Source: Gemmatimonadales bacterium (GTDB lineage: Bacteria; Gemmatimonadota; Gemmatimonadetes; Gemmatimonadales; GWC2-71-9). From it: DNA of 64,000 nucleotides. The position numbers and the translations under genes were made by a program. The stretch spans positions 1 to 64,000 of the forward strand of contig DASYCE010000031.1 of NCBI GenBank assembly GCA_036500345.1, in the 5' to 3' direction. Positions within the stretch are counted from its first letter, which is position 1. The number at the start of each line of letters is the position of its first letter. Shown here one piece after another: positions 49,958-61,506 of this stretch. A model generated the notes under the pieces. It had not been told where the DNA came from, did not search any database, and saw only the letters and a program-made list of their open reading frames with translations.

Positions 49958-50727
49958 CGCGCCGCGTGAGGCGAATGACGGATCGCCGCGCCGACGGCCC
50001 ACGCTTCACGTGCGCCGTCATGCTGGCCTTTGCGCCAGAGGGCGCGCCCGAGTTCGGCCCACCCTTCCGCGAGGTTCGGGCCGAGTGTCACGGCGCGCCG
50101 CAGCATCTCGATGGCATCGGAGGGCATGTCGCGTTCGAGGTAAGCCACGCCGAGCCAGAAATTGGCGTAGAGCGCAGCGCGCGCATCACCGCTGCGTGCC
50201 GCCGCGCGCGAGAGATGCTCGATCGCTTCACCGAGAATTCCCTTGCGCAGGCAGATGGCACCCACGGCAACGCGCGCGAGCCCGTGCTCGGGTTCCCGCA
50301 GCAACACCTGCAGACATAGCTGCAACGCCTCGTCATTCCGGTTCTGATACATCAATGCCCAACCCAGCAACGCTTCCGCAGTGGTACTTGTCGCGTCGAG
50401 CGAGATGGCGTGCCGCAGTTCGGCCTGCGCCGTGGTCCAGTCGCCGCCCGCGAGTGCCGTCCATCCCCGCTCCACATGTGTCGAGGCGCCGATATGATCG
50501 TGCCGTGCCGTCGCCGCGCCGTCCTGGGGCAACGCCTTGAAGCGCTCGACCAGTTCCCGGATCCGTTCCTTGAATGCAGCGAGGTCGGTGATCGTCGACT
50601 CGGTCCGCTTGAAGAGTGCGACGATGGCGCCCCGGACCGCCGCGCGATCGGCGGGCGCGACCGGCTGGCGCATCGCTTCCTCGAGTCGATCGAATTCCTC
50701 CTGCAGCGCCGGAAACTCGTCGCTCAT
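49894..50727 (-). CDS. TPR protein of the signalling cluster
   Basis: A 277-residue cytosolic protein. The N-terminal 80 residues are a charged helical region (ALQEEFDRLEEAMRQPV, FKERIRELVERFKALPQ). About four TPR units follow, e.g. GWTALAGGDWTTAQAELRHA, ARVAVGAICLRKGILGEAIE and LGVAYLERDMPSDAIEMLRR. TPRs are protein-binding scaffolds; no catalytic motif is present. The ATG at 50727 overlaps the DUF4388-TPR gene by 4 nt. Conserved place between this gene and the peptidase suggests a scaffold for the same pathway. Confidence 0.78.
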   Translation of the reverse strand: MSDEFPALQEEFDRLEEAMRQPVAPADRAAVRGAIVALFKRTESTITDLAAFKERIRELVERFKALPQDGAATARHDHIGASTHVERGWTALAGGDWTTAQAELRHAISLDATSTTAEALLGWALMYQNRNDEALQLCLQVLLREPEHGLARVAVGAICLRKGILGEAIEHLSRAAARSGDARAALYANFWLGVAYLERDMPSDAIEMLRRAVTLGPNLAEGWAELGRALWRKGQHDGAREAWAVGAAIRHSPHAARCRELLDTMAAGGTPPRSPFA

Positions 50728-52346
50728 GCAGCGGCTCCGGCGCCGGCGAGGTTGGACCGCGCCAGGGCGTGCTCGGGGTTGAGTCGGATCGCCTCTTCCC
50801 AATGCCGGCGCGCCGCCGCGAGGTCCCCACGCCGGCACGCGAGATTGCCGAGCTTGAAGTAGATGTCGTCACCCAGGCCCGGGGCGAGCTTGGTGGCGCG
50901 ATCATACGCCTCTTCCGCCTCGTCCCAGCGCCCGGCACGATAGAGGAGGTCGCCGAGATTCTTGGAGATCTGCGGGATCGTCGGATCTTCGCCGAGCGCG
51001 TGACGGAGATGTGCTTCGGCTTCGCCGACCTCGCCGGTCCCCTCGAGGAGCACGCCGAGGGTCGTGCGGAGCACTGGATGATCGGGAAAGGCCTGTACTC
51101 CCTCACGCATCGTCGCGACCGCATCGGGCCACGCCTCCGACAGCCCCTGGGCCCACCCGCATCCCCAATACCACCGCGCCGGCGGCTGCGCCGCGCCGAG
51201 GAGGTCACGCGCCCGCGCAAAGCGTTCGAGCGCGTGGGCCGGATCGACGCGACGAAGCGCGAGGAGGCCGAACGCAGTCCACAGCCGCGGATCGTGAGTG
51301 TTGCGCTGCAGCGCTTCGGTGAGCGCCGCTTCGGCGTCGTCGAGCCGGCCCGACGCTTCGAGTGCCAGCGCGAGATTGTGCAACACCGCGACGCGGGAGG
51401 AATCGCGCTCCGCCGCGCGCTGGAAGAAGTCGACAGCGTCGGTCCACCGCGCCTGACGCAGGGCGATCAGTCCGAGGTAGAACGGCGCCATCGCATCGGT
51501 GGGGCGCAGTTCATTCACGCGACGGAACTCACGCTCTGCTTCGGCGAGCATCCCGGTGCGATAGAACGCAATGCCGAGATTGCGATGCTCGTCGATCCGC
51601 GACAGGTCTTCCCGGGGCGGCGGCGGCGGTGCCGTCGAGACGCGCCGCAGGCGACCCGCGGTGAGCAGGCCGAAGAGGACGCGGCAGATTTCGAATTCGC
51701 TGAGGCCGGTGCCGTCAACGATCTCACGAACCGTGTTGATCCCGTTGATGAAAGGGAGGACTCGCCGTTCCGACTCCACCAGCTGGGCATCGTCGTCGAC
51801 CGCGGCGCGCGGCTCGCCGTCCACGGCATAGACCGCATCGACAGTGGTGATCTTCTTGGCGATAACGCTCCACTCGTCGACACGTCGCGCCCCCTCGAGG
51901 AGCAACCCTTCCGGATTGAGGCGGAGCACGGCATCGGGGACGTCGGGATCGGCGCCAACTTCGAACGAGAAGGTGCCACTGGTCCATGAGAAAAGCGTGT
52001 AGATGCACTCCTCGACCTGGCGACGGAGTTCGCTCTCGAGTTCGCCGGCGGTGACCAGCCCGAGATGGACCAGCATCTCGCCGAGACGTCGTCCCGGCAT
52101 AGCGACCTGTGCCGCGATCGCTTCCTCGAGCTGCGCGGCGGTGATCCGGCCCGCGGCGACAAGCCGCTCGCCGATCCGGTCGATGCGTGACACCATCCCC
52201 GCGAAGGTGATCCATCCTTCGTCGAACCAGATCGAGCCGAAGTTGTGCTCGCTCGCCACCGAGAGACATCCGGTGCGCCGCCCGAGGAAGAGCAGCTGCA
52301 CCACATCGGGAAGCGACGCCTCCTTGAGTGAGCCCTTGATCGCCAT
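50724..52346 (-). CDS. DUF4388 (PATAN-type) protein with C-terminal TPRs
   Basis: A 540-residue protein. Residues 1-130 form the DUF4388 domain (MAIKGSLKEASLPDVVQLLF, then RTGCLSVASEHNFGSIWFDE), known from PatA-like regulators next to response regulators and MglA. A second conserved segment follows at about 100-160 (LGEMLVHLGLVTAGELESEL). TPR units run from about residue 255 to the end: LGIAFYRTGMLAEAEREFRR, APFYLGLIALRQARWTDAVD and GDLLYRAGRWDEAEEAYDRA. The start overlaps the AAA+ gene stop (TGATG). A tight place beside the tandem AAA+ and GTPase genes suggests an output or scaffold role. Confidence 0.82.
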   Translation of the reverse strand: MAIKGSLKEASLPDVVQLLFLGRRTGCLSVASEHNFGSIWFDEGWITFAGMVSRIDRIGERLVAAGRITAAQLEEAIAAQVAMPGRRLGEMLVHLGLVTAGELESELRRQVEECIYTLFSWTSGTFSFEVGADPDVPDAVLRLNPEGLLLEGARRVDEWSVIAKKITTVDAVYAVDGEPRAAVDDDAQLVESERRVLPFINGINTVREIVDGTGLSEFEICRVLFGLLTAGRLRRVSTAPPPPPREDLSRIDEHRNLGIAFYRTGMLAEAEREFRRVNELRPTDAMAPFYLGLIALRQARWTDAVDFFQRAAERDSSRVAVLHNLALALEASGRLDDAEAALTEALQRNTHDPRLWTAFGLLALRRVDPAHALERFARARDLLGAAQPPARWYWGCGWAQGLSEAWPDAVATMREGVQAFPDHPVLRTTLGVLLEGTGEVGEAEAHLRHALGEDPTIPQISKNLGDLLYRAGRWDEAEEAYDRATKLAPGLGDDIYFKLGNLACRRGDLAAARRHWEEAIRLNPEHALARSNLAGAGAAA

Positions 52347-54358
52347 CAGCTCCACTCCTCGAGCATGCGTTCGGCGATATCGGGCCACGTCGCAATCATC
52401 TTCTCACGCGAGCGGATCGCACCGCTTCCCGGCGCCAGCAGTCCGCTGCCGCGCCGATGCGGGCGCGAGGACGGCGTCGCGGTGCCGTCGAGCAGCGTGC
52501 GCGCCAGCTCGACCGTGAGCGGGGTCTGGCGATCCTCCGCGGCGCCGATCAGGCGCTGGACGAGTTGCTGCACCTCGCGCAGTGAGGCGGCGGGGCGCGA
52601 CGCCACGAAGTCGACGAGGTCGGGATCGACCGGCGCCGGCCCTCCGCCGAGCAGCCGTTCAACCTCGAAGATCCGCGCTTCGCGGTCGGGCGCACCGAGC
52701 TCGAGGACCAGCCCTCCGGAGAGACGCGTCGCAAGGCGCGGTTCGATGCCGGGGAGCTGCGCGGGGGCGGCCGGCGCGGTGAACGCCATCTGCAGGCCGG
52801 CCTCGAGCATGATGTTGTAGAGCTGATACAGCTCTTCCTGGCTGCGTTCCTTCCCCGCCACCGCGCTGACATCGTCGATCAGCAGCGCCTGACAGCGGCG
52901 CAGCCGCTGGCGCCACCGCCCGATCGACCCGCTGCCGAGCGCCGTCACCAGGCCGTCGACAAATTCCTTGCCGTCGAAGACCGCGACCCGCGTCAATCCC
53001 GCCGCGCGCAACGCGTGAGCAAACGCGTGCAGCAGGTGGGTCTTGCCGACCCCGGGGCGGCCGACGATCACCAGCGGGTTGTATCGCTGGCCCGGCGCGG
53101 CCGCGGCCTGGCGAATCGCCTCGACGACGGGCCGGCTCGACGGACCTTCGGCGAATTGCGCCAGCGCATAGCGCGGCGACGGGCCCGGCAGTGGATCCCC
53201 TGCTTCGCGCGCCTCAACCACCAGCAGCTCTGCCTCGGCGACCCGGTCGGGATCGTGCAGCACGGTTTCGACCAGGAGCGATGGTGCCACGATCTCGAGC
53301 TCGTCCTGCAACTGGCGCAGTGCGCTCACATCAGCATCGAACGCCGCCAGCGCTTCCGCCGGATCGACCGCAATTTCTTCGGCGAGGATGGCGTCGAGCC
53401 GCGCGGTGTGAAATCCCTCTCCGCGATACCTGAGCGCGGCCTCGGTGACGCGCTGCCGCCAGCGATCGACCTGCTGCGACACGGCGTTCGATACATCGGA
53501 AAGGAACGCATCGAATTCGCCGTCCATCGTATCGCCGCGCGCCGCGGGCGGCCGTCCCTCCGGCGCGCCGCTCGACCGCTGCGTGGCGACAGTGCCGGCA
53601 GACGGACTTGCTGGTGCGACGGCGCCCGGCGGCTCGTGATGCCCGAGGGTCGCGAGGACACGCCGCGCTTCGTCGGCGGTGATCGGCGACGATGCCACCG
53701 CCTGCTGGGCGATGAGCCGATTGAGCGCTCCGAGCAGCTCGCGGACGGTCCCGATTCGCAGCTCGGCTACGGCCGCGAGGACCTCCGGAAAGAACTCGAT
53801 CTGCCGTTCGCCGGCGCGGCGCGACAGAATCGCGAGGCGCGTCTCGTAATCCGGCGCCCCGATGTCGATGACGAGGCCGCCGGCAAAACGGCGGATCAAT
53901 CGTTCATCGAGCGACTGGATCTCTTCGGGCGGTCGGTCGCTGGCCAGGACGATCTGCCGGTCGGCCGCCATCAACAGGTCGATGAGCCGCAGCAATTCCG
54001 ATTGCAACTCTCGCTGGTCACTCAGCAGCTGCGCATCGTCGACGAGGACGAGATGGGCTTCGGTGAAGCGGCGTCGATATGCCTCGGCCTGCCCCGCGGC
54101 GAGCGCCGCGTGATACGCCTCGACGAAATCGTCGACCGTGACGTATTCGACGATCCGCGCCGCGTCGATCGACTGCGCTTCGTGGCCGATCGCGGTAAGC
54201 AGGTGCGTCTTGCCGAGACCCGGCCGCGCGTAGAAAAAGAGCGGGTTATACGCGGCCCCCGGCGCCTCCGCCACCGCCTTCGCCGCGGTCGCCGCCAGTC
54301 GATTGGACGATCCGACGACGAATGAGGCAAACCGCGCGTGGGGATTCAGCATCGGCAT
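52346..54358 (-). CDS. Protein with two DnaA-type AAA+ ATPase domains and no DNA-binding domain
   Basis: A 670-residue protein carrying two DnaA-like AAA+ domains. Domain 1 (about 6-240) begins FASFVVGSSNRLAATAAKAV and has Walker A YARPGLGKTHLLTAIGHEA at 43-61, Walker B HLVLVDDAQLL and a sensor/Arg region ERLIRRFAGGLVIDI. Domain 2 (about 400-625) has Walker A VGRPGVGKTHLLHAFAHAL, Walker B CQALLIDDVSAV and PRLATRLSGGLVLEL. Both have intact Lys, Thr and Asp. A linker of about 160 residues is partly low complexity. The C-terminal DnaA DNA-binding domain and its GRDHTTV signature are missing. It is therefore not the initiator; a nucleotide switch or chaperone in the surrounding signalling pathway is likelier. 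Confidence 0.88.
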   Translation of the reverse strand: MPMLNPHARFASFVVGSSNRLAATAAKAVAEAPGAAYNPLFFYARPGLGKTHLLTAIGHEAQSIDAARIVEYVTVDDFVEAYHAALAAGQAEAYRRRFTEAHLVLVDDAQLLSDQRELQSELLRLIDLLMAADRQIVLASDRPPEEIQSLDERLIRRFAGGLVIDIGAPDYETRLAILSRRAGERQIEFFPEVLAAVAELRIGTVRELLGALNRLIAQQAVASSPITADEARRVLATLGHHEPPGAVAPASPSAGTVATQRSSGAPEGRPPAARGDTMDGEFDAFLSDVSNAVSQQVDRWRQRVTEAALRYRGEGFHTARLDAILAEEIAVDPAEALAAFDADVSALRQLQDELEIVAPSLLVETVLHDPDRVAEAELLVVEAREAGDPLPGPSPRYALAQFAEGPSSRPVVEAIRQAAAAPGQRYNPLVIVGRPGVGKTHLLHAFAHALRAAGLTRVAVFDGKEFVDGLVTALGSGSIGRWRQRLRRCQALLIDDVSAVAGKERSQEELYQLYNIMLEAGLQMAFTAPAAPAQLPGIEPRLATRLSGGLVLELGAPDREARIFEVERLLGGGPAPVDPDLVDFVASRPAASLREVQQLVQRLIGAAEDRQTPLTVELARTLLDGTATPSSRPHRRGSGLLAPGSGAIRSREKMIATWPDIAERMLEEWS

Positions 54359-54359
54359 C

Positions 54360-54965
54360 TCAGCGCGACCGGGCGCGTGCCGGCGCGAGTTGCCGCATCA
54401 TCAGCATGATCGCCGCGTGGAGCGCTTCGAGGACCCCATCGCCCCGAAGCGGCGAACAGGGAAAGCTTGGCTGGCCTTCCGGATTGAGTTCGGCGTCGAG
54501 CGAAGCCGGCGTGAGCAGCAACTCTTCCGGCAGGTCGCGCTTCGTCTGCAGGAAGACGATCGGGACCGTCCGCGGATGGCCGTCGTGATCGTCGAGATTC
54601 TCCCGCAGCGACGCGAGTGCGGTGATGTTTTCGGTGAGGCGTCCTGCCTGCGAATCCGCCGCGAAGAGCACCGCGTCGGTGTCGGCGAGAATCAGGCGGC
54701 GCGTGGCGTCGGCGTGGCGTTGATCGGGAACGGCGTAGAGGTGCACGCGCACGCGCCATCCTCCGATGGTTCCGAGATCGAGCGGAAGCCAGTCGAGAAG
54801 CGGCGCCACCGACACGTCGGTGCCGAGCGGCGTGAAAGCGCCGCGGCGCTCGGGCGCGACGCGATCCTGAATGCAGTGGAGGATCGTCGTCTTCCCGGAT
54901 TGCGGCGCGCCATACACCACCAGCGTCGCGGCGATCTCCTGACGGTCGGTATCGAGGCGCGCCAC
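54360..54965 (-). CDS. MglA-like small Ras-family GTPase
   Basis: A 201-residue GTPase of the MglA group, which controls polarity and motility in Myxococcus and relatives. The P-loop GAPQSGKTT lies at 19-27, the switch region DWLPLDLGTIGGWRVRVHLY at 58-77, and VPDQRHADATRRLIL from 79. The last matches MglA VPGQxxYDASRRLIL except Gly81 is Asp. AADSQAGRLTENI and FLQTKRDLPEEL (base recognition, 139-148) follow. The GTG at 54965 is 1 nt after the stop of the roadblock gene; upstream frame is antisense-like. Roadblock proteins encoded beside it are the usual GAP/regulators (MglB-like). Confidence 0.92.
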   Translation of the reverse strand: MARLDTDRQEIAATLVVYGAPQSGKTTILHCIQDRVAPERRGAFTPLGTDVSVAPLLDWLPLDLGTIGGWRVRVHLYAVPDQRHADATRRLILADTDAVLFAADSQAGRLTENITALASLRENLDDHDGHPRTVPIVFLQTKRDLPEELLLTPASLDAELNPEGQPSFPCSPLRGDGVLEALHAAIMLMMRQLAPARARSR

Positions 54966-54966
54966 G

Positions 54967-55434
54967 TCAGTGCGCTCCGAAGAGTGCGCGGAGCGAGTCG
55001 TCGAGTTCGCGCTCGAATCCTTCGGCCAGCACTTCGCGCACCGGGACTGTCGGCGGCGTGGCCGCCACGATCTGTTCGGCAAACCGGGTGAAGAAGAGCC
55101 GCACCAGGCCGACCGACGACTCCCCGCCGAAGACCACCAGGCCGATCCAGCGCCCGCGCGGCGTGTCGAACCCGGCGAGCCACACGCCGCGACCGATCCC
55201 CTGATGCACCACAGCACCGAACCCGTCGCGGGTCCCGAGCAGCGTGGCGAGCTCGCCGGTCGTCGCGAGAATGCCGGCGCCGAGCGCGGCAGCAGCCATG
55301 ACATCGAGCGAGCGCGTGAATCCATGCTGCGCAATGACCTGCCCGGAGCTGGTCATCACCAGCGCGACGCGCGCCGACGATTCGCGGAGAAACTCCGCCA
55401 GCGGTTCACCCACCCACGGTTCGAGGACGCGCAT
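54967..55434 (-). CDS. Roadblock/LC7-domain protein (MglB-like), longer form
   Basis: A 155-residue protein with a roadblock fold: EFLRESSARVALVMTSSGQV and IAQHGFTRSLDVMAAAALGA in the first half, then WLAGFDTPRGRWIGLVVFGG and SVGLVRLFFTRFAEQIVAA. A helical tail follows (VREVLAEGFERELDDSLRAL). MglB is the GAP and polarity partner of MglA, and this gene sits directly before the GTPase gene. The start ATG overlaps the previous roadblock stop (TGATG). Whether it activates or inhibits the GTPase cannot be told from sequence. Confidence 0.83.
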   Translation of the reverse strand: MRVLEPWVGEPLAEFLRESSARVALVMTSSGQVIAQHGFTRSLDVMAAAALGAGILATTGELATLLGTRDGFGAVVHQGIGRGVWLAGFDTPRGRWIGLVVFGGESSVGLVRLFFTRFAEQIVAATPPTVPVREVLAEGFERELDDSLRALFGAH

Positions 55435-55805
55435 CAGCCGAGGGCACCCGCGAAGTCTCGCAACAGCACGCGCAACCGGCCGAGTTCCGCGTCGGGTCGC
55501 GCGACCGCCACGAGCCAGAGCGGCACCACGCCCGCGACGGCGAAGATCGCACCACCCTCCGCGACGAACTGCACCGACGTCGGCGCCGATCCGTCCACGC
55601 TGGAGGTCGCGCGGCCGGCGCGCGCGATGATGGCGGCAGCGAGTGCGGCAACATCCGCTGTCGCGAGATCGTCCATCGCGGTTTCGGCGACGATCAGCCC
55701 GTCGTCGGACGAAATGACCAGCGCGCCGCGGACACCGGGAATTCCGGTCACCTCGCGCATCGCCGCATCCCATGGGGCAGCCGTCACCGCATCGTCCCCA
55801 GCCAT
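55434..55805 (-). CDS. Roadblock/LC7-domain protein, short form
   Basis: A 123-residue protein of one roadblock domain: AAMREVTGIPGVRGALVISS, DDGLIVAETAMDDLATADVA, then QFVAEGGAIFAVAGVVPLWL. This is the normal MglB length. It overlaps the TPR-roadblock gene by 22 nt and the next roadblock gene by 1 nt. Two tandem roadblock genes before a GTPase suggest a heteromeric regulator, as such domains dimerise; this is inference. Confidence 0.83.
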   Translation of the reverse strand: MAGDDAVTAAPWDAAMREVTGIPGVRGALVISSDDGLIVAETAMDDLATADVAALAAAIIARAGRATSSVDGSAPTSVQFVAEGGAIFAVAGVVPLWLVAVARPDAELGRLRVLLRDFAGALG

Positions 55806-56542
55806 TGCCGCGCCGCAAACATCGCGCGTTCGCCGTGCGCGAGAAGCCGGCCGATCGGAATTGCCGCCGGGCGATGCAGGATCAGAGCAGCATCGTCGGT
55901 GACCGGGAGCATCGCGATCGTGGCGCTCGGCGACTCGATGGCGACGTAGCGCACCACGCCCAGCTCGAGCAGCCGCGCCGCACGGCTGGCTTCGCGCGTG
56001 AGTCCCGCACCTTCGGCCGCAAGGAGATCTGCATCCGATGCGTCGTCACCCGCACCCCCGCCGGTGAGCCGCATTCCCTGCGTGTCGTATAGCAGCGTCC
56101 CGTGCATCGGATCCGCGAGGCGCGCCGGCTCGTCCACGCTGGTCGATGGTCGCAGGGCGCGGACCCGGTCGAGGGCGGCAAGTACCGTGGCGTCATGCGG
56201 TGCGCGCATCGCGGCGAGTTCGAGATGCCGCTCCGCCGCGCCGAAGTCATGCGCCCTGAACGCCACGAACGCGAGCCCCTTTCGCGCGCCGATGTGGGCC
56301 GGATCGCACTCGAGCGCTGCACGCCATGCCGCGACCGCGGCCGCATCGTCTCCCTGATCGGCGCGAATCCGGCCGAGGAGATCGTGCGCATCCGCGACCG
56401 ACGGATAGTGCCCGAGGCCCGCGAGCGCGACCGCCGCGGCCGCGGCAAACTGACCACGCTGGCGCAGGCGTTCGCCAAGTTCGAGGAAAGCCAGCCGCTG
56501 CGGAAGGGAGTGGGTGGTGCCAGGAAGGGAAGCGTCAGTCAC
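55784..56542 (-). CDS. TPR protein with a C-terminal roadblock-like domain
   Basis: A 252-residue protein. Residues ~15-125 are three TPR units (LGERLRQRGQFAAAAAVAL, LLGRIRADQGDDAAAVAAW, AFRAHDFGAAERHLELAAMR). After a short linker, residues ~145-250 resemble a roadblock fold: GTLLYDTQGMRLTGG, AAEGAGLTREASRAARLLEL, VRYVAIESPSATIAML, and DDAALILHRPAAIPIGRLL. The order (strand, helix, strands) and phrases fit roadblock proteins of Mgl systems. That would give three roadblock domains in this operon. The final part overlaps the short roadblock gene by 22 nt. Confidence 0.7.
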   Translation of the reverse strand: MTDASLPGTTHSLPQRLAFLELGERLRQRGQFAAAAAVALAGLGHYPSVADAHDLLGRIRADQGDDAAAVAAWRAALECDPAHIGARKGLAFVAFRAHDFGAAERHLELAAMRAPHDATVLAALDRVRALRPSTSVDEPARLADPMHGTLLYDTQGMRLTGGGAGDDASDADLLAAEGAGLTREASRAARLLELGVVRYVAIESPSATIAMLPVTDDAALILHRPAAIPIGRLLAHGERAMFAARQWLGTMR

Positions 56543-57461
56543 GGGCGTCGCGAAGCGCCTCCATCATGGTCCGGGCCGCCTGCATCAATGCCGTCGCCTC
56601 GTCGCGGCGATCCGGTTCGTCCTGTTGCCAGCTGCGCCACGCGTCGATGGCATCTTCGAAGCGACCGGCCCCGATCTCGGCCAGCCCGAGCGCGCGCCAC
56701 GACTCGGCGTCGTGCGGATGCGCCGCGAGACGGTCGCGAAGGAGCCGCGCCGCTTCTTCGTACCGTCGAGCCTCGAGCGCCATCCGTGCTGCCAGCAGCG
56801 GGTTGCTCCGTGCCGGTCGCAGCTCAAGTATAGTGGCGGCGCAGAGCGACTGAATCCGCTCGGCCACCTCTTCCAGTGGTTCGTCGAGCGCCGCAGCAAG
56901 CTCCGAGAGATCGCGAACCCCGTCCACGCGATCCAGAATGCGCCAGTCAAGCGGCACCAGTGCCGGCACCGCGCCCGCCGCCAGTTGATCGGCCGGGACG
57001 AACGCCGGCACCACGTGGAATTCATCGAGGACCGGCGCCAGCTCGACGCGGCGGGTTTCGGCCGCGACCAGCGCGAAGACGAGGTCGTCGGTCGAGATCG
57101 AGAGCGCACCATCGGCCGGCGCGGTCTCCTGGAAATCGAATCGCCCGCGATGCCAGTGCAGCATCGCCGTGATCGCGCGGTGCGCCAGCCGCGTCCGCAT
57201 CGCGCGCGCCCGCGGACGCCGCAGGACCTCCGCATCGTCGCGCGCATCGGTCGATGTGATGACGTGACGATCGATCAATGCCCGGCGAGTCGCCTCGTCA
57301 CCGGCATCCGGTTCGACCGCCACGATCGCCCCGTCGGTGATCCGCAGCAGGCACGGCGGATCGACGTCGCTTCGGCTGACGCGCAGCACACCGCTGCGCT
57401 TGCCGCGTTCGAGCAGCTGCAGGACCTCGATCAGACCGATCTCGCTCAATGGTCCGTGCAT
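56535..57461 (-). CDS. DUF4388 (PATAN-type) protein
   Basis: A 308-residue protein. Residues 1-100 are a DUF4388 domain (MHGPLSEIGLIEVLQLLERG, then RSGVLRVSRSDVDPPCLLRI and ITDGAIVAVEPDAGDEATRR). Its DNA-binding or winged-helix segment lies in the middle (DWRILDRVDGVRDLSELAAA, about 170-195). Two short TPR-like pairs end it (AARMALEARRYEEAARLL, LGLAEIGAGRFEDAIDAW). It shares domain style with the DUF4388-TPR protein at 50724-52346, so the cluster holds two such proteins. The start overlaps the TPR379 stop (TGATG). Confidence 0.78.
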   Translation of the reverse strand: MHGPLSEIGLIEVLQLLERGKRSGVLRVSRSDVDPPCLLRITDGAIVAVEPDAGDEATRRALIDRHVITSTDARDDAEVLRRPRARAMRTRLAHRAITAMLHWHRGRFDFQETAPADGALSISTDDLVFALVAAETRRVELAPVLDEFHVVPAFVPADQLAAGAVPALVPLDWRILDRVDGVRDLSELAAALDEPLEEVAERIQSLCAATILELRPARSNPLLAARMALEARRYEEAARLLRDRLAAHPHDAESWRALGLAEIGAGRFEDAIDAWRSWQQDEPDRRDEATALMQAARTMMEALRDARD

Positions 57462-58600
57462 CAGGCCCCCGCGAAGAGCGTGGCGAGTTGCCGCGCCGAT
57501 CGTGCGTGGCGGCGGCTGGCCAGACCGAGATCACCCGCGGGATCAACCCGGCCCACGGTGGCCCAGTCATCAAACGCTTCGTCGTAGCGTCGCAGCTTTG
57601 CCAGCACGACCCCGCGGTGGAAGAGCGCGGCGGTCTGTGACGGCTGATGGGCCAGGACCTGATCGAACACTGCGAGCGCTTCGCCGAGGTGCGCAGTCTG
57701 CAGCAGTGATCGCCCGAGGGTCAGGAGCACCTCGTCGGTGTGCGACGCCGACTCGCCGTCGCCGCTCTCGGCCGGGAGCTCGACCAGGGTTCCAGCGGCA
57801 TCGCGCTCGAGCAACCAGACTTGTGGCAAATACCATGGAGAGATGAGCAATGCCCGGCGGATGGCAGCGAGCGCGTCGCCGTGCATTCCCATCCGCTCGA
57901 AGGCGAGGCCAAGAGTGAAGTGCGCCCGCGCCGAATCGGGATCTGCCGCAGCGGCAGCGGCCAGCAGCGGCAAAGCCTGGGCCGGATCCTGGTCCGCCAG
58001 CGCCGCGTAGCCGGCGAGAAAATGCAGCTGCGGTTCGATTGGCGATCGGTCGAGTCGCGGGGCGAGCACGGCCCGGGCGCGATGCGGAAACCCACGCCGC
58101 AACATCGCCAGCGCACGGTTGTGCGCGGCAGCCGACGAGTGCGCCGCGAGCGCCCGATCCCACGCGGCGTCTGCTGCGACGCGTTCGTGTCGCTGCTCGT
58201 GCAGGACCGCGAGCCCGTTCCACGCCTGCGTGGCAACCTCCGGATCTTCGATCGCCGCGCGGTAGCACGCTTCCGCCACCGCGGATTCCTGCTGCCGATG
58301 GGCGGCAACCGCTGCGGCAAGCGGATTTCCGGTGGGCCGCCGATCGCTCGGTGACTCGTCGTCCGCCGCGAGGAGGATCCCGTCGGTGCGCCCGGCGGCG
58401 AGCCGTTCGAGGGCGCGGATCGCGGATGCGGGCGCGTCCGGCATCGCGACGGCGCGCCGCGCGGCATCGAGCGCCGTGGCGTGCTCGCCGCGGCGCGCGG
58501 CGAACCAGGCGAAATTGTTGAGGGTCGTGGCACCGGCACGAGCAAGTCGACGGCTGAGTGCCGCCACGATCAGCAGATCCTGCGCCCGCTCGCCCGGCAC
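57461..58600 (-). CDS. TPR protein of the signalling cluster, 379 residues
   Basis: A cytosolic, almost wholly helical protein of TPR units: NNFAWFAARRGEHATALDA, WNGLAVLHEQRHERVAADAA, LGLAFERMGMHGDALAAIRR and LFHRGVVLAKLRRYDEAFDD near the end. A Ser/Asp-rich linker is at about 280-290. No catalytic motif. The GTG at 58600 lies 1 nt after the CheC-like gene stop. It probably scaffolds the kinase-side genes (cheW, cheY, cheA, cheC) to the GTPase-side genes, an inference from position. Confidence 0.75.
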   Translation of the reverse strand: MPGERAQDLLIVAALSRRLARAGATTLNNFAWFAARRGEHATALDAARRAVAMPDAPASAIRALERLAAGRTDGILLAADDESPSDRRPTGNPLAAAVAAHRQQESAVAEACYRAAIEDPEVATQAWNGLAVLHEQRHERVAADAAWDRALAAHSSAAAHNRALAMLRRGFPHRARAVLAPRLDRSPIEPQLHFLAGYAALADQDPAQALPLLAAAAAADPDSARAHFTLGLAFERMGMHGDALAAIRRALLISPWYLPQVWLLERDAAGTLVELPAESGDGESASHTDEVLLTLGRSLLQTAHLGEALAVFDQVLAHQPSQTAALFHRGVVLAKLRRYDEAFDDWATVGRVDPAGDLGLASRRHARSARQLATLFAGA

Positions 58601-58601
58601 G

Positions 58602-59225
58602 TCACTCGATCCGGATCGCCTCGAGAATCGCGCGAATCGATGCCTGGTCAGGCATCAACAGGAAGGCACCGGTCAGGGGCTCACCGGTCCCTTCGGCGCG
58701 GAACGATGTATCGACGCAGAACACCAGATCGCCTGGCGCCTCCCTCGGATCGGCGGTCGATCCGATCGCCTGCGCCGTCGGTCCGATCGTCAGCGAAGGG
58801 ACCGACGGCAGGAGCATCATCCCCATGAAGTTGCTCAGGGCGGTGAGATATGCCGAGCAGACGATGTTGCCGACCTCCTTGAGCCCCGACTGCTCGAGCT
58901 CGCCGAGGGCGCGCGGCGGCCCGGGAGGGCGCCGGAGAATCAGGTCGCACAACCGCGTGGCGTCGTACTCTCCGAAGGTGAGCAACGCCCGGCCGGTGAG
59001 ATCGCCGAGCATTCGCATGGCGACGACCGCGACATGATCGCCGAAGGCGCGCACCATCGTCGGCACTTCACCGAAGTGCACCCGGCGCACGCTGGGCACC
59101 GAGATCATGATGCGCTGATCGGTGAGCTGCGAGAGTGCGGTCGCGGCGTGCCCCGCGCCGATCGTCGCGACTTCGCGCAGGCCGTCGTGCCGGAGCGCTT
59201 CGATGTCGTTCGGAGTCGAGGTCAT
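58602..59225 (-). CDS. cheC: CheC-like chemotaxis phosphatase, one site degenerate
   Basis: A 207-residue CheC/CheX-type protein, which dephosphorylates CheY-P. CheC has two active-site copies with the pattern ExxN. The first copy here is GLREVATIGAGHAATALS, with Glu18 but Thr21 in place of Asn, so it is likely dead. The second is SGLKEVGNIVCSAYLTALS, with Glu117 and Asn120 intact. GAFLLMPDQASIRAIL near the end is the usual CheC tail. It follows cheA by 31 nt without a strong ribosome site. CheD, CheR and CheB, common partners, are absent here. One active site would still allow dephosphorylation. Confidence 0.85.
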   Translation of the reverse strand: MTSTPNDIEALRHDGLREVATIGAGHAATALSQLTDQRIMISVPSVRRVHFGEVPTMVRAFGDHVAVVAMRMLGDLTGRALLTFGEYDATRLCDLILRRPPGPPRALGELEQSGLKEVGNIVCSAYLTALSNFMGMMLLPSVPSLTIGPTAQAIGSTADPREAPGDLVFCVDTSFRAEGTGEPLTGAFLLMPDQASIRAILEAIRIE

Positions 59226-59256
59226 GAGAAAGTCCGGTCAGGAGTCGTCGGGCGAG

Positions 59257-60759
59257 TCATACCACGCTCGCCAGGTCCATCATCAGCGCCGGCAAACCGT
59301 CATCCAGCACCGTCGCACCGGTAATCCATCGTGCCATCCCCGCCGGCCGATCGATCGGTTGCACCACGGCGTCGACCTGGCCGTGCACCGCATCGGCGAG
59401 GAGCGCCACGCGCTGGCCGTTGGCCTCGACCACGACCACCGGGCGATGCTGCGGCGGATCGTCGCCGCGATACTGCAGCAAGCGACGCAGGTCGACGATC
59501 GGCAGTGCGTCGCCGCGAACGAAGAGCACCGCTCGGCCATCCTGCTGTCCGATCGATCCGGCTTCCGCCGCCACCAATTCCACCACATGCGTCAGCGGCA
59601 TCACATACCGCTCCGACCCGATGCTGGTCACCAGTGCCCGCACGATGCCGAGTCGCGTCGGAAGCCGGATGCCGAAGATCGTCCCCCGGCCCGGCACCGT
59701 CGACAGCGAGAGGGACGCGCCCATTTCGCGCAGCCGCGCGACGACCACGTCGAGCCCGACACCGCGTCCCGACACCTCGGTGACCTGCGACGCGGTGCTG
59801 AATCCCGGTCGCTCCAGCACCGAGAGCAGCCCGTCGTCGGTCAGCACGGCGCGACTGTCGAGCATCCCCATCTCCCGGGCACGGCGCGCGACAGCGTCAC
59901 GATCGATTCCGCGCCCGTCGTCACCGACCTCGACCACCACCGCGTCACCGTCGCGGCGCGCGACGACCGTGATCCGCCCGGCGGGGCGTTTCCCTGCCGC
60001 GCGCCGCTCGTCCATCGTCTCGATCCCGTGGTCCACCGCGTTGCGCATCAGGTGCAGCAACGGATCGGCGAGTTGATCGAGAATCGCGCGGTCGACTTCG
60101 AGCCCCTCGCCGGTGATCTGCACCTGCACTTCGCGACCGAGCTGACGCGCCAGATCCCGAACCATCGGCGGCACGCGCTCGAACACTTCGGCGAGCGGCG
60201 CCAGGCGGACGTCGAGGATGCGCGATTGCAGCGTGTCGAGCCGCCGGGCCATCCGGAGCGCCGCCTGCGAGATCGTCGAGAACGGGTCGATTTGTGCTCG
60301 CCGCTCGAGCTCCTGCCGCGCCGTCACGAGCGCGCCGAGATCTCCGAGCAGTGCGTCGAGCCGATCGAGATCGACGCGAACGATTCGTGCACCCCGTACC
60401 GGTGCAGCTGATTCGGTATCGGCCACCTCGCTCGATGCAATTGCCGCTTCGCATGCGAGCGTCACTTCATCGAGCTCGATCGCGAAGGCGCGCAGCCACG
60501 CCGGTGTCGCCACCTGGCCGCCGCGGCGAACATCGCTCAGCCGCGTTTCCGTCGCGTGAACCAGGTCGGTCGCGGCCGCAAACTCCAGCGATGCCGCCAT
60601 CCCCTTGACCGTGTGCAGCGCGCGGAAGATCTCCTCGGCCGGCTCACGCTCGGCGGGTGTGTCGATCCACAGGTCGAGCGCGCGACGTGCGCCGCTCAGC
60701 AGCGACCGCGTCTCCGACGCGAAGAGAGCGACGTAACGTGCGCGGCGCGGATCGGTCAT
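59257..60759 (-). CDS. cheA: CheA-like histidine kinase
   Basis: A 500-residue CheA-type kinase. The HPt domain has the phospho-acceptor His49 in FRALHTVKGMAASLEF. The CheY-binding P2 domain is absent or very short. Dimerisation and kinase domains follow: MRNAVDHGIETMDERRAAGK (N box, about 260), VGDDGRGIDRDAVARRAREM (G1), VSGRGVGLDVVVARLREMGA (G2). A CheW-like domain ends the protein (RALVTSIGSERYVMPLTHVV). The ATG overlaps the cheY stop by 4 nt. The short form without P2 resembles those of minimal or alternative chemosensory pathways. Confidence 0.92.
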   Translation of the reverse strand: MTDPRRARYVALFASETRSLLSGARRALDLWIDTPAEREPAEEIFRALHTVKGMAASLEFAAATDLVHATETRLSDVRRGGQVATPAWLRAFAIELDEVTLACEAAIASSEVADTESAAPVRGARIVRVDLDRLDALLGDLGALVTARQELERRAQIDPFSTISQAALRMARRLDTLQSRILDVRLAPLAEVFERVPPMVRDLARQLGREVQVQITGEGLEVDRAILDQLADPLLHLMRNAVDHGIETMDERRAAGKRPAGRITVVARRDGDAVVVEVGDDGRGIDRDAVARRAREMGMLDSRAVLTDDGLLSVLERPGFSTASQVTEVSGRGVGLDVVVARLREMGASLSLSTVPGRGTIFGIRLPTRLGIVRALVTSIGSERYVMPLTHVVELVAAEAGSIGQQDGRAVLFVRGDALPIVDLRRLLQYRGDDPPQHRPVVVVEANGQRVALLADAVHGQVDAVVQPIDRPAGMARWITGATVLDDGLPALMMDLASVV

Positions 60760-61121
60760 CCACCCAGTACGCGCTGAACCGCTTCGAGCACCCGCGCCGG
60801 CTGAAACGGCTTGACCACGAAGTCCTTGGCGCCGGCCTGGATCGCTTCCACCACCAGCGCCTGCTGGCCCATCGCGCTGCACATCAGGATCCTGGCCGCC
60901 GGATCGGCCGCGACGATCGCGCGGACCGCATCGATGCCGCCCATGTCGGGCATCACGATATCCATCGTGACGAGATCGGGCTTGAGCACCTTGTAGCGGT
61001 CGACCGCCTGCAGGCCGCTTTCCGCCTCGCCGACCACGTCATAGCCGGCACCGCTCAGGATGTCGGCGATCATCGTTCGCATGAAGATCGCATCGTCGCA
61101 GATCAGGATCCGGTGCGCCAC
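60756..61121 (-). CDS. cheY: Single-domain response regulator CheY
   Basis: A 121-residue receiver domain with acidic pair Asp9-Asp10, phospho-acceptor Asp54 (LVTMDIVMPDMGG), Ser82 in the switch position (MCSAMGQQALV) and Lys104 (DFVVKPFQPA). No output domain. The start is a GTG at 61121 with a GGAGGA ribosome site 7 nt upstream. It lies between cheW (22 nt gap) and cheA (4 nt overlap). Its likely target is an element of the downstream operon rather than a flagellar switch, since none is here; that is inference. Confidence 0.93.
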   Translation of the reverse strand: MAHRILICDDAIFMRTMIADILSGAGYDVVGEAESGLQAVDRYKVLKPDLVTMDIVMPDMGGIDAVRAIVAADPAARILMCSAMGQQALVVEAIQAGAKDFVVKPFQPARVLEAVQRVLGG

Positions 61122-61143
61122 GCAAAGTCCTCCGGCTGAAGAA

Positions 61144-61506
61144 TCAGGCGAAAATCGCGGATGCGATCCGGCCCAGGTCAATTTCTGCAAGGCCCGTGCG
61201 AGCCTCCCCGACCAATTCCACCACGGCGTCGGCGACCAGACCGAACCGGCGGCCCTCCCATTCCACCACCACGATCTCGGAGCCGGTGGCACCACCGCCG
61301 CCAAGCTCGAGCGCCCGCACCGCGTCGGCGACCACCAGGATCCGGCCGCGGTGATTGGCCATCCCCCGAACGGCCTGGGCTCCCCCGGGCACCCGCACCA
61401 TCCGCGCGTCGCGCAGGACCTCGATCACGCTGACGACCGGGATGTACCAACGCGATCCGGCCATCTGCACCACGAGGCCGCCGACCCGCAGTCCCCCCTC
61501 AGTCAT
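61144..61506 (-). CDS. cheW: CheW-like coupling protein
   Basis: A 120-residue CheW domain: LVVQMAGSRWYIPVVSVIEV, then VRVPGGAQAVRGMANHRGRI, then VVVEWEGRRFGLVADAVVEL. It normally bridges receptors and CheA. It opens the che-GTPase run; its ATG overlaps the rluD stop (TGATG), so the signalling genes are transcribed behind the ileS-lspA-rluD block unless an internal promoter exists. No receptor gene lies in the window. Confidence 0.9.
   Translation of the reverse strand: MTEGGLRVGGLVVQMAGSRWYIPVVSVIEVLRDARMVRVPGGAQAVRGMANHRGRILVVADAVRALELGGGGATGSEIVVVEWEGRRFGLVADAVVELVGEARTGLAEIDLGRIASAIFA

Follow-up and report, generated by a model that had tools for sequence, protein, structure and literature searches.

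In the window, by which we mean the whole 64,000-nucleotide stretch analyzed, the minus strand between positions 52346 and 54358 carries a gene for a tandem DnaA-like AAA+ protein of 670 amino acids (aa), with its ATG at 54358 and its TGA at 52348-52346. The first-pass annotation of this DNA had placed two DnaA-type cores in a single chain here, and its coordinates were exact. Pfam Bac_DnaA matched the protein twice, the two matches summing to 275.7 bits. Core 1 (residues 4-238; 53645-54349, minus strand) is a DnaA domain III-type AAA+ module with its lid, and has Walker A (K50/T51), Walker B (D107/D108), sensor I (D141), an Arg finger (R157), and sensor II (R206). It is about 40% identical to domain III of Bacillus subtilis DnaA (phmmer E value, 1.9e-49), and its AlphaFold model superimposed on a DnaA structure with a Z score of 32 and an rmsd of 1.2 Å over 237 residues. 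Core 2 (residues 392-626; 52481-53185, minus strand) is a DnaA/Hda-like AAA+ module that was matched by Hda models and Hda structures in profile and phmmer searches. It has Walker A (K439/T440), Walker B (D495/D496), an Arg finger (R545), and sensor II (R594). The resemblance of the protein to DnaA is far beyond chance. The Walker motifs that had been read from both cores are present, but the description of both as complete holds only for core 1: the sensor I of core 2 is degenerate (FTAPAAP versus SDRPP in core 1), though R545 and R594 are kept.

The AlphaFold model of the full protein had a pTM of 0.57. A p97-like stack of the two cores was considered and rejected, as the double-AAA matches in the fold search were found only at rmsd values of 12 to 18 Å. 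Between core 1 and the linker domain is a variable stretch (residues 241-278; 53525-53638, minus strand) with a pLDDT below 50 over most of its length, and core 2 is followed in the model by about 45 low-confidence residues with a conserved end.

The helical linker domain (residues 279-392; 53183-53524, minus strand; EFxxFLxxV...WRxxV...) had no convincing match in Pfam (best E value, 0.0039, to ABC_tran_CTD). A sequence-profile search of the PDB gave a best E value of 0.37, and Foldseek gave one of 4.8; because the domain is small and helical, the missing match is weak evidence. There is no second copy in the host genome. The linker appears to be a new domain.

The conserved C-terminal tail (residues 648-670; 52349-52417, minus strand) reads SREKMIATWPDIAERMLEEWS, and its motif was absent from the other open reading frames (ORFs) of the window. 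Across relatives, the parts that are kept are the first linker helix (EFxxFL; EFxxFLxxV) and the tail W-[ED]-WP. In an alignment of 45 tails, which was anchored on the Trp before the Pro, that Trp occurred in 45/45, the first Glu of the terminal EE pair in 44/45, and a Glu six residues before the Trp in 42/45. The W-WP part survives even in relatives that have no AAA+ core. The codons of the EE pair, GAGGAG, are placed where they probably serve the next gene downstream as its ribosome-binding site, and a purely protein-level reason for the EE was accordingly rejected in part. The Trp-Pro part is too distant from the next start codon to have that role.

The tandem gene lies in a chemosensory operon. 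Immediately upstream (54360-54965, minus strand) is a gene for an MglA-type Ras-like GTPase that begins with GTG; its product matched solved MglA chains at 2.4e-29, which bears out the earlier description of this neighbor as MglA-like. Immediately downstream (50724-52346, minus strand) is a gene for a protein with DUF4388, which we take to be the PATAN domain, and tetratricopeptide repeats (PATAN-TPR). Its start codon and the stop codon of the tandem gene overlap in a TGATG (within 52344-52365), an arrangement also seen in relatives. Domain matches identified two Roadblock/LC7 proteins and a TPR-Roadblock protein at 54967-56542, and DUF4388-TPR, TPR, CheC, CheA, CheY, and CheW proteins, the rest of the conserved operon, at 56535-61506, all on the minus strand. 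The MglA of the operon looks degenerate: its G3 is VPDQ instead of VPGQ, its G4 is TKRD instead of NKRD, and its switch I is altered. The MglAs of relatives in the genus share the nonstandard G3 and G4 residues. Elsewhere in the host genome is a second MglA, which is canonical, near a Roadblock gene.

MglA, Roadblock, Che, and TPR proteins also occur together in the Myxococcus MglA/MglB/RomR/Frz polarity modules, which have SgmX and FrzS as effectors. A survey of prokaryotic small GTPases noted PATAN neighbors for some MglA genes and mentioned no DnaA-type protein like the one in the module described here (PMC4316618). The PATAN proteins PixG, LsiR, and PixE of Synechocystis are similar in that the domain has ties with chemosensory systems as well as with pilus motors (PMC7690835), but the PATAN-TPR partner in our operon has no receiver domain and is coupled to a DnaA-derived protein. 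Literature searches returned nothing relevant on MglA with DnaA, DUF4388 with DnaA, tandem or paralogous DnaA, or MglA in Gemmatimonas.

The first-pass annotation had held that the protein cannot be a replication initiator, and our results agree. Neither DnaA_N (domain I) nor Bac_DnaA_C (domain IV, with the helix-turn-helix [HTH]) matched at an E value of ≤0.1 in Pfam, and core 1 begins as early as residue 4. The host genome has an ordinary DnaA on contig 12, with a domain IV-type C-terminal sequence. Because domains I and IV are absent and there is a separate DnaA, an initiator role is, from sequence, well supported as excluded in practice. Like DnaA domain III, the protein has the AAA+ fold, Walker A and B, the box VII Arg finger, and sensor II; unlike DnaA, it has two cores per chain, no domain I or HTH, and an added helical linker and tail. 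In profile comparisons with the DnaA and Hda families, the cores were of DnaA/Hda type. Hda has one AAA+ core and a clamp-binding motif. The tandem protein shares with Hda/HdaA a DnaA-type AAA+ module without an HTH, but it and its relatives have two cores or fewer, a pattern search found no recognizable clamp-binding motif in it, and its gene lies within a Che/MglA operon. The NCBIfam equivalog models illustrate a trap for annotators. The Hda model (TIGR03420) scored 161.8 bits over two stretches, below its cutoff of 194.8, and the DnaA model (TIGR00362) scored 397.9 bits, a total summed over two matched stretches, against a cutoff of 343.9. Because the summed two-domain score exceeds the TIGR00362 cutoff, automatic annotation may label the protein DnaA.

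A peptide-pattern scan of species genomes, which detects near relatives only, gave seven close relatives, those named being all Gemmatimonadetes/Gemmatimonadales metagenome-assembled genomes (MAGs); other phyla may also have the gene. Within the phylum, copies are widespread in the Gemmatimonadales, and other orders of its class have scattered copies. In many Gemmatimonadota genomes, DnaA is present but there is no copy detectable at an E value of ≤1e-60, the cutoff used for the phylum counts, which misses diverged copies. Each of six genomes scanned from another class gave one match, at the strength of ordinary DnaA. Outside the Gemmatimonadota, coverage consisted of short peptide patterns plus plasmid and phage collections; the matches in the collections were all partial and of the ordinary DnaA-like kind, and none reached 80% coverage of the query. 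The statement that no named family has this plan stands so far as literature and databases were searched, the search outside the phylum being shallow.

The order CheW/CheY/CheA/CheC ... Roadblock, MglA, tandem gene, PATAN-TPR was held across 30-odd loci, throughout the Gemmatimonadales and in further families. In nearly all loci the tandem gene is directly 3′ of MglA; the exception is family f5, in which MglA is outside the cluster and the PATAN-TPR gene is still next. In all loci the gene occurs with PATAN-TPR, mostly in a Che operon, and replication genes are never adjacent. In several lineages CheR and CheB (and CheD and CheW) come next after the conserved operon. In two Gemmatimonas-type loci (L063 and L068), MglA and a tandem-type gene are present, and tblastn did not detect Roadblock between PATAN and MglA.

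The slot is constant, and what fills it varies. Two full cores are found in families f1 and f3 and in most of f2. Core 2 lacks its lid in Gemmatimonas-type genera and f4; in f5 it has no Walker A and mostly no Walker B (8/8 examined). Families f6 and f9 have a single core in a protein of about 390 to 400 aa, and one further locus (L095) has a single partial core. In genome G109, the protein consists of a strongly diverged core 1, the linker, and the tail; in G180, of linker and tail with no core; and in G039, G092, G060, G124, and G338, of about 70 residues, namely the first linker helix and the tail. Both cores have thus been lost in six genomes of four genera, giving products of about 70 to 200 aa in an unchanged position between MglA and PATAN-TPR. 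The first-pass annotation had taken two intact ATPase cores as the defining trait. That does not hold, since relatives in the same slot have one core, a dead second core, or none, and the essence of the protein does not lie in its tandem arrangement. In three loci without an AAA+ core (L119, L120, and L123), the PATAN-TPR protein is shortened, to 430 to 477 aa versus about 540.

In a tree of the PATAN-TPR proteins, the zero-core states were nested inside the mostly two-core f2 clade, requiring at least two changes; because of this nesting, we regard the loss of the cores as derived. In a tree of the AAA+ domains, the core 1 sequences formed a single clade (97/97), as did those of core 2 (81/99), and each clade was separate from the DnaAs of the same genomes, the host DnaA included. 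This tree has long branches and is compatible with core 2 having come either from core 1 or directly from DnaA. Almost all members conserve the Walker A and B motifs of core 1.

We consider it somewhat probable (about 0.58) that the protein is a DnaA-derived adaptor or scaffold of a chemosensory-MglA polarity module and not a replication protein. The reading rests on the finding that the enzyme cores can drop out of a protein whose helix and tail remain, encoded between an unchanged pair of genes. Of the two roles suggested earlier, an ATP-driven switch or a scaffold, the scaffold is the better, and it is strengthened by the AAA+-less relatives; for the accompanying idea that the protein mimics DnaA interactions we found nothing, there being no domain I, domain IV, or clamp motif. 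The linker helix and tail would bind operon partners, most likely MglA or the Roadblock proteins plus the PATAN-TPR protein. We infer that the AAA+ cores may be an optional ATP-dependent assembly device. By analogy with DnaA domain III, they would bind ATP and form head-to-tail assemblies, with the Arg finger of one core acting on the ATP of its neighbor in the same chain or another, and the assembled cores would cluster the partners at one site, e.g., a pole. The function that they most likely add is ATP-dependent clustering, because the residues of the ATP site and the Arg fingers are mostly kept in the cores. The near-universal retention of Walker A and B in core 1 suggests that ATP binding matters wherever that core exists.

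The probable output of the module is type IV pilus control, as with PATAN proteins and MglA-SgmX elsewhere. Cyanobacterial PATAN regulators have been linked to pilus motors (PMC7690835), and two reports on Myxococcus describe stimulation of pili by MglA via the TPR protein SgmX (PMC7519303 and PMC7668184). Among several T2SSE-family ATPase genes in the host genome, two lie side by side, as PilB and PilT genes often do, and the genome also encodes two methyl-accepting chemotaxis proteins (MCPs).

Four points count against the adaptor model. If the protein were a passive adaptor, core 1 would have no need of its kept ATP site; the ribosome-binding site accounts in part for the EE of the tail; in f5, MglA is not a neighbor of the gene; and the short core-less ORFs may be what remains of a gene undergoing decay instead of working minimal forms. 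The fuller account is that a DnaA ATPase was recruited, often doubled, as an ATP-controlled assembly device of the chemosensory-MglA-PATAN polarity system, so far only in the Gemmatimonadota, and was later lost on more than one occasion, with the essential linking still being done by a remaining tether of about 70 residues; we regard the chances for and against this account as evenly balanced. If true, it would be a clear case of a replication initiator ATPase that moved out of replication into cell polarity signaling, and the natural versions with two, one, and no cores would be a ready test of what the AAA+ oligomer contributes to an adaptor.

The operon position raises the alternative that the AAA+ cores are the active part of an ATP-driven regulator of MglA, whether GEF-like, GAP-helping, or an effector ATPase. 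The adjacency to MglA outside f5, the well-conserved ATP site of core 1, and the presence of the gene in Gemmatimonas-type clusters although Roadblock genes were undetected there are what such a regulator would lead one to expect. But several genera retain MglA while both cores vanish, the f5 gene lives without a neighboring MglA, and the MglA of the window's own genus has the nonstandard VPDQ and TKRD, so that we think this alternative unlikely.

It is also improbable that the protein is an Hda-like replication regulator, with cores that insert into DnaA oligomers and so tune initiation to the chemosensory/MglA pathway. The relationship to DnaA and Hda is real: the cores are of that type with Arg fingers kept, Hda models and structures match core 2, a PF00308 search of the host genome gave above the cutoff only DnaA and the tandem gene, and in most f1-f3 members core 2 has residues (V/I471, K503, and R505) that align with V211, K243, and R245 of Escherichia coli DnaA. 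Set against this are the absent clamp-binding motif, the constant company of PATAN-TPR and mostly Che genes with replication genes never as neighbors, the many Gemmatimonadota that have DnaA and no detectable copy, and the lineages that keep the remainder of the protein without either core. Those same three residues would suit a role in DNA binding or control of transcription, in which the protein would apply the initiator-specific helix of core 2 to single-stranded DNA, but f4 and f5 have Thr in place of K503, core 1 mostly has Glu at the position aligned with R245, f6, f9, and the AAA+-less forms lack core 2, and Pfam found no HTH domain, which makes this reading very improbable.

At two f6 loci, L092 (6859-8170) and L094 (9243-10405), a gap of about 1.2 to 1.3 kb separates MglA from the single-core protein.
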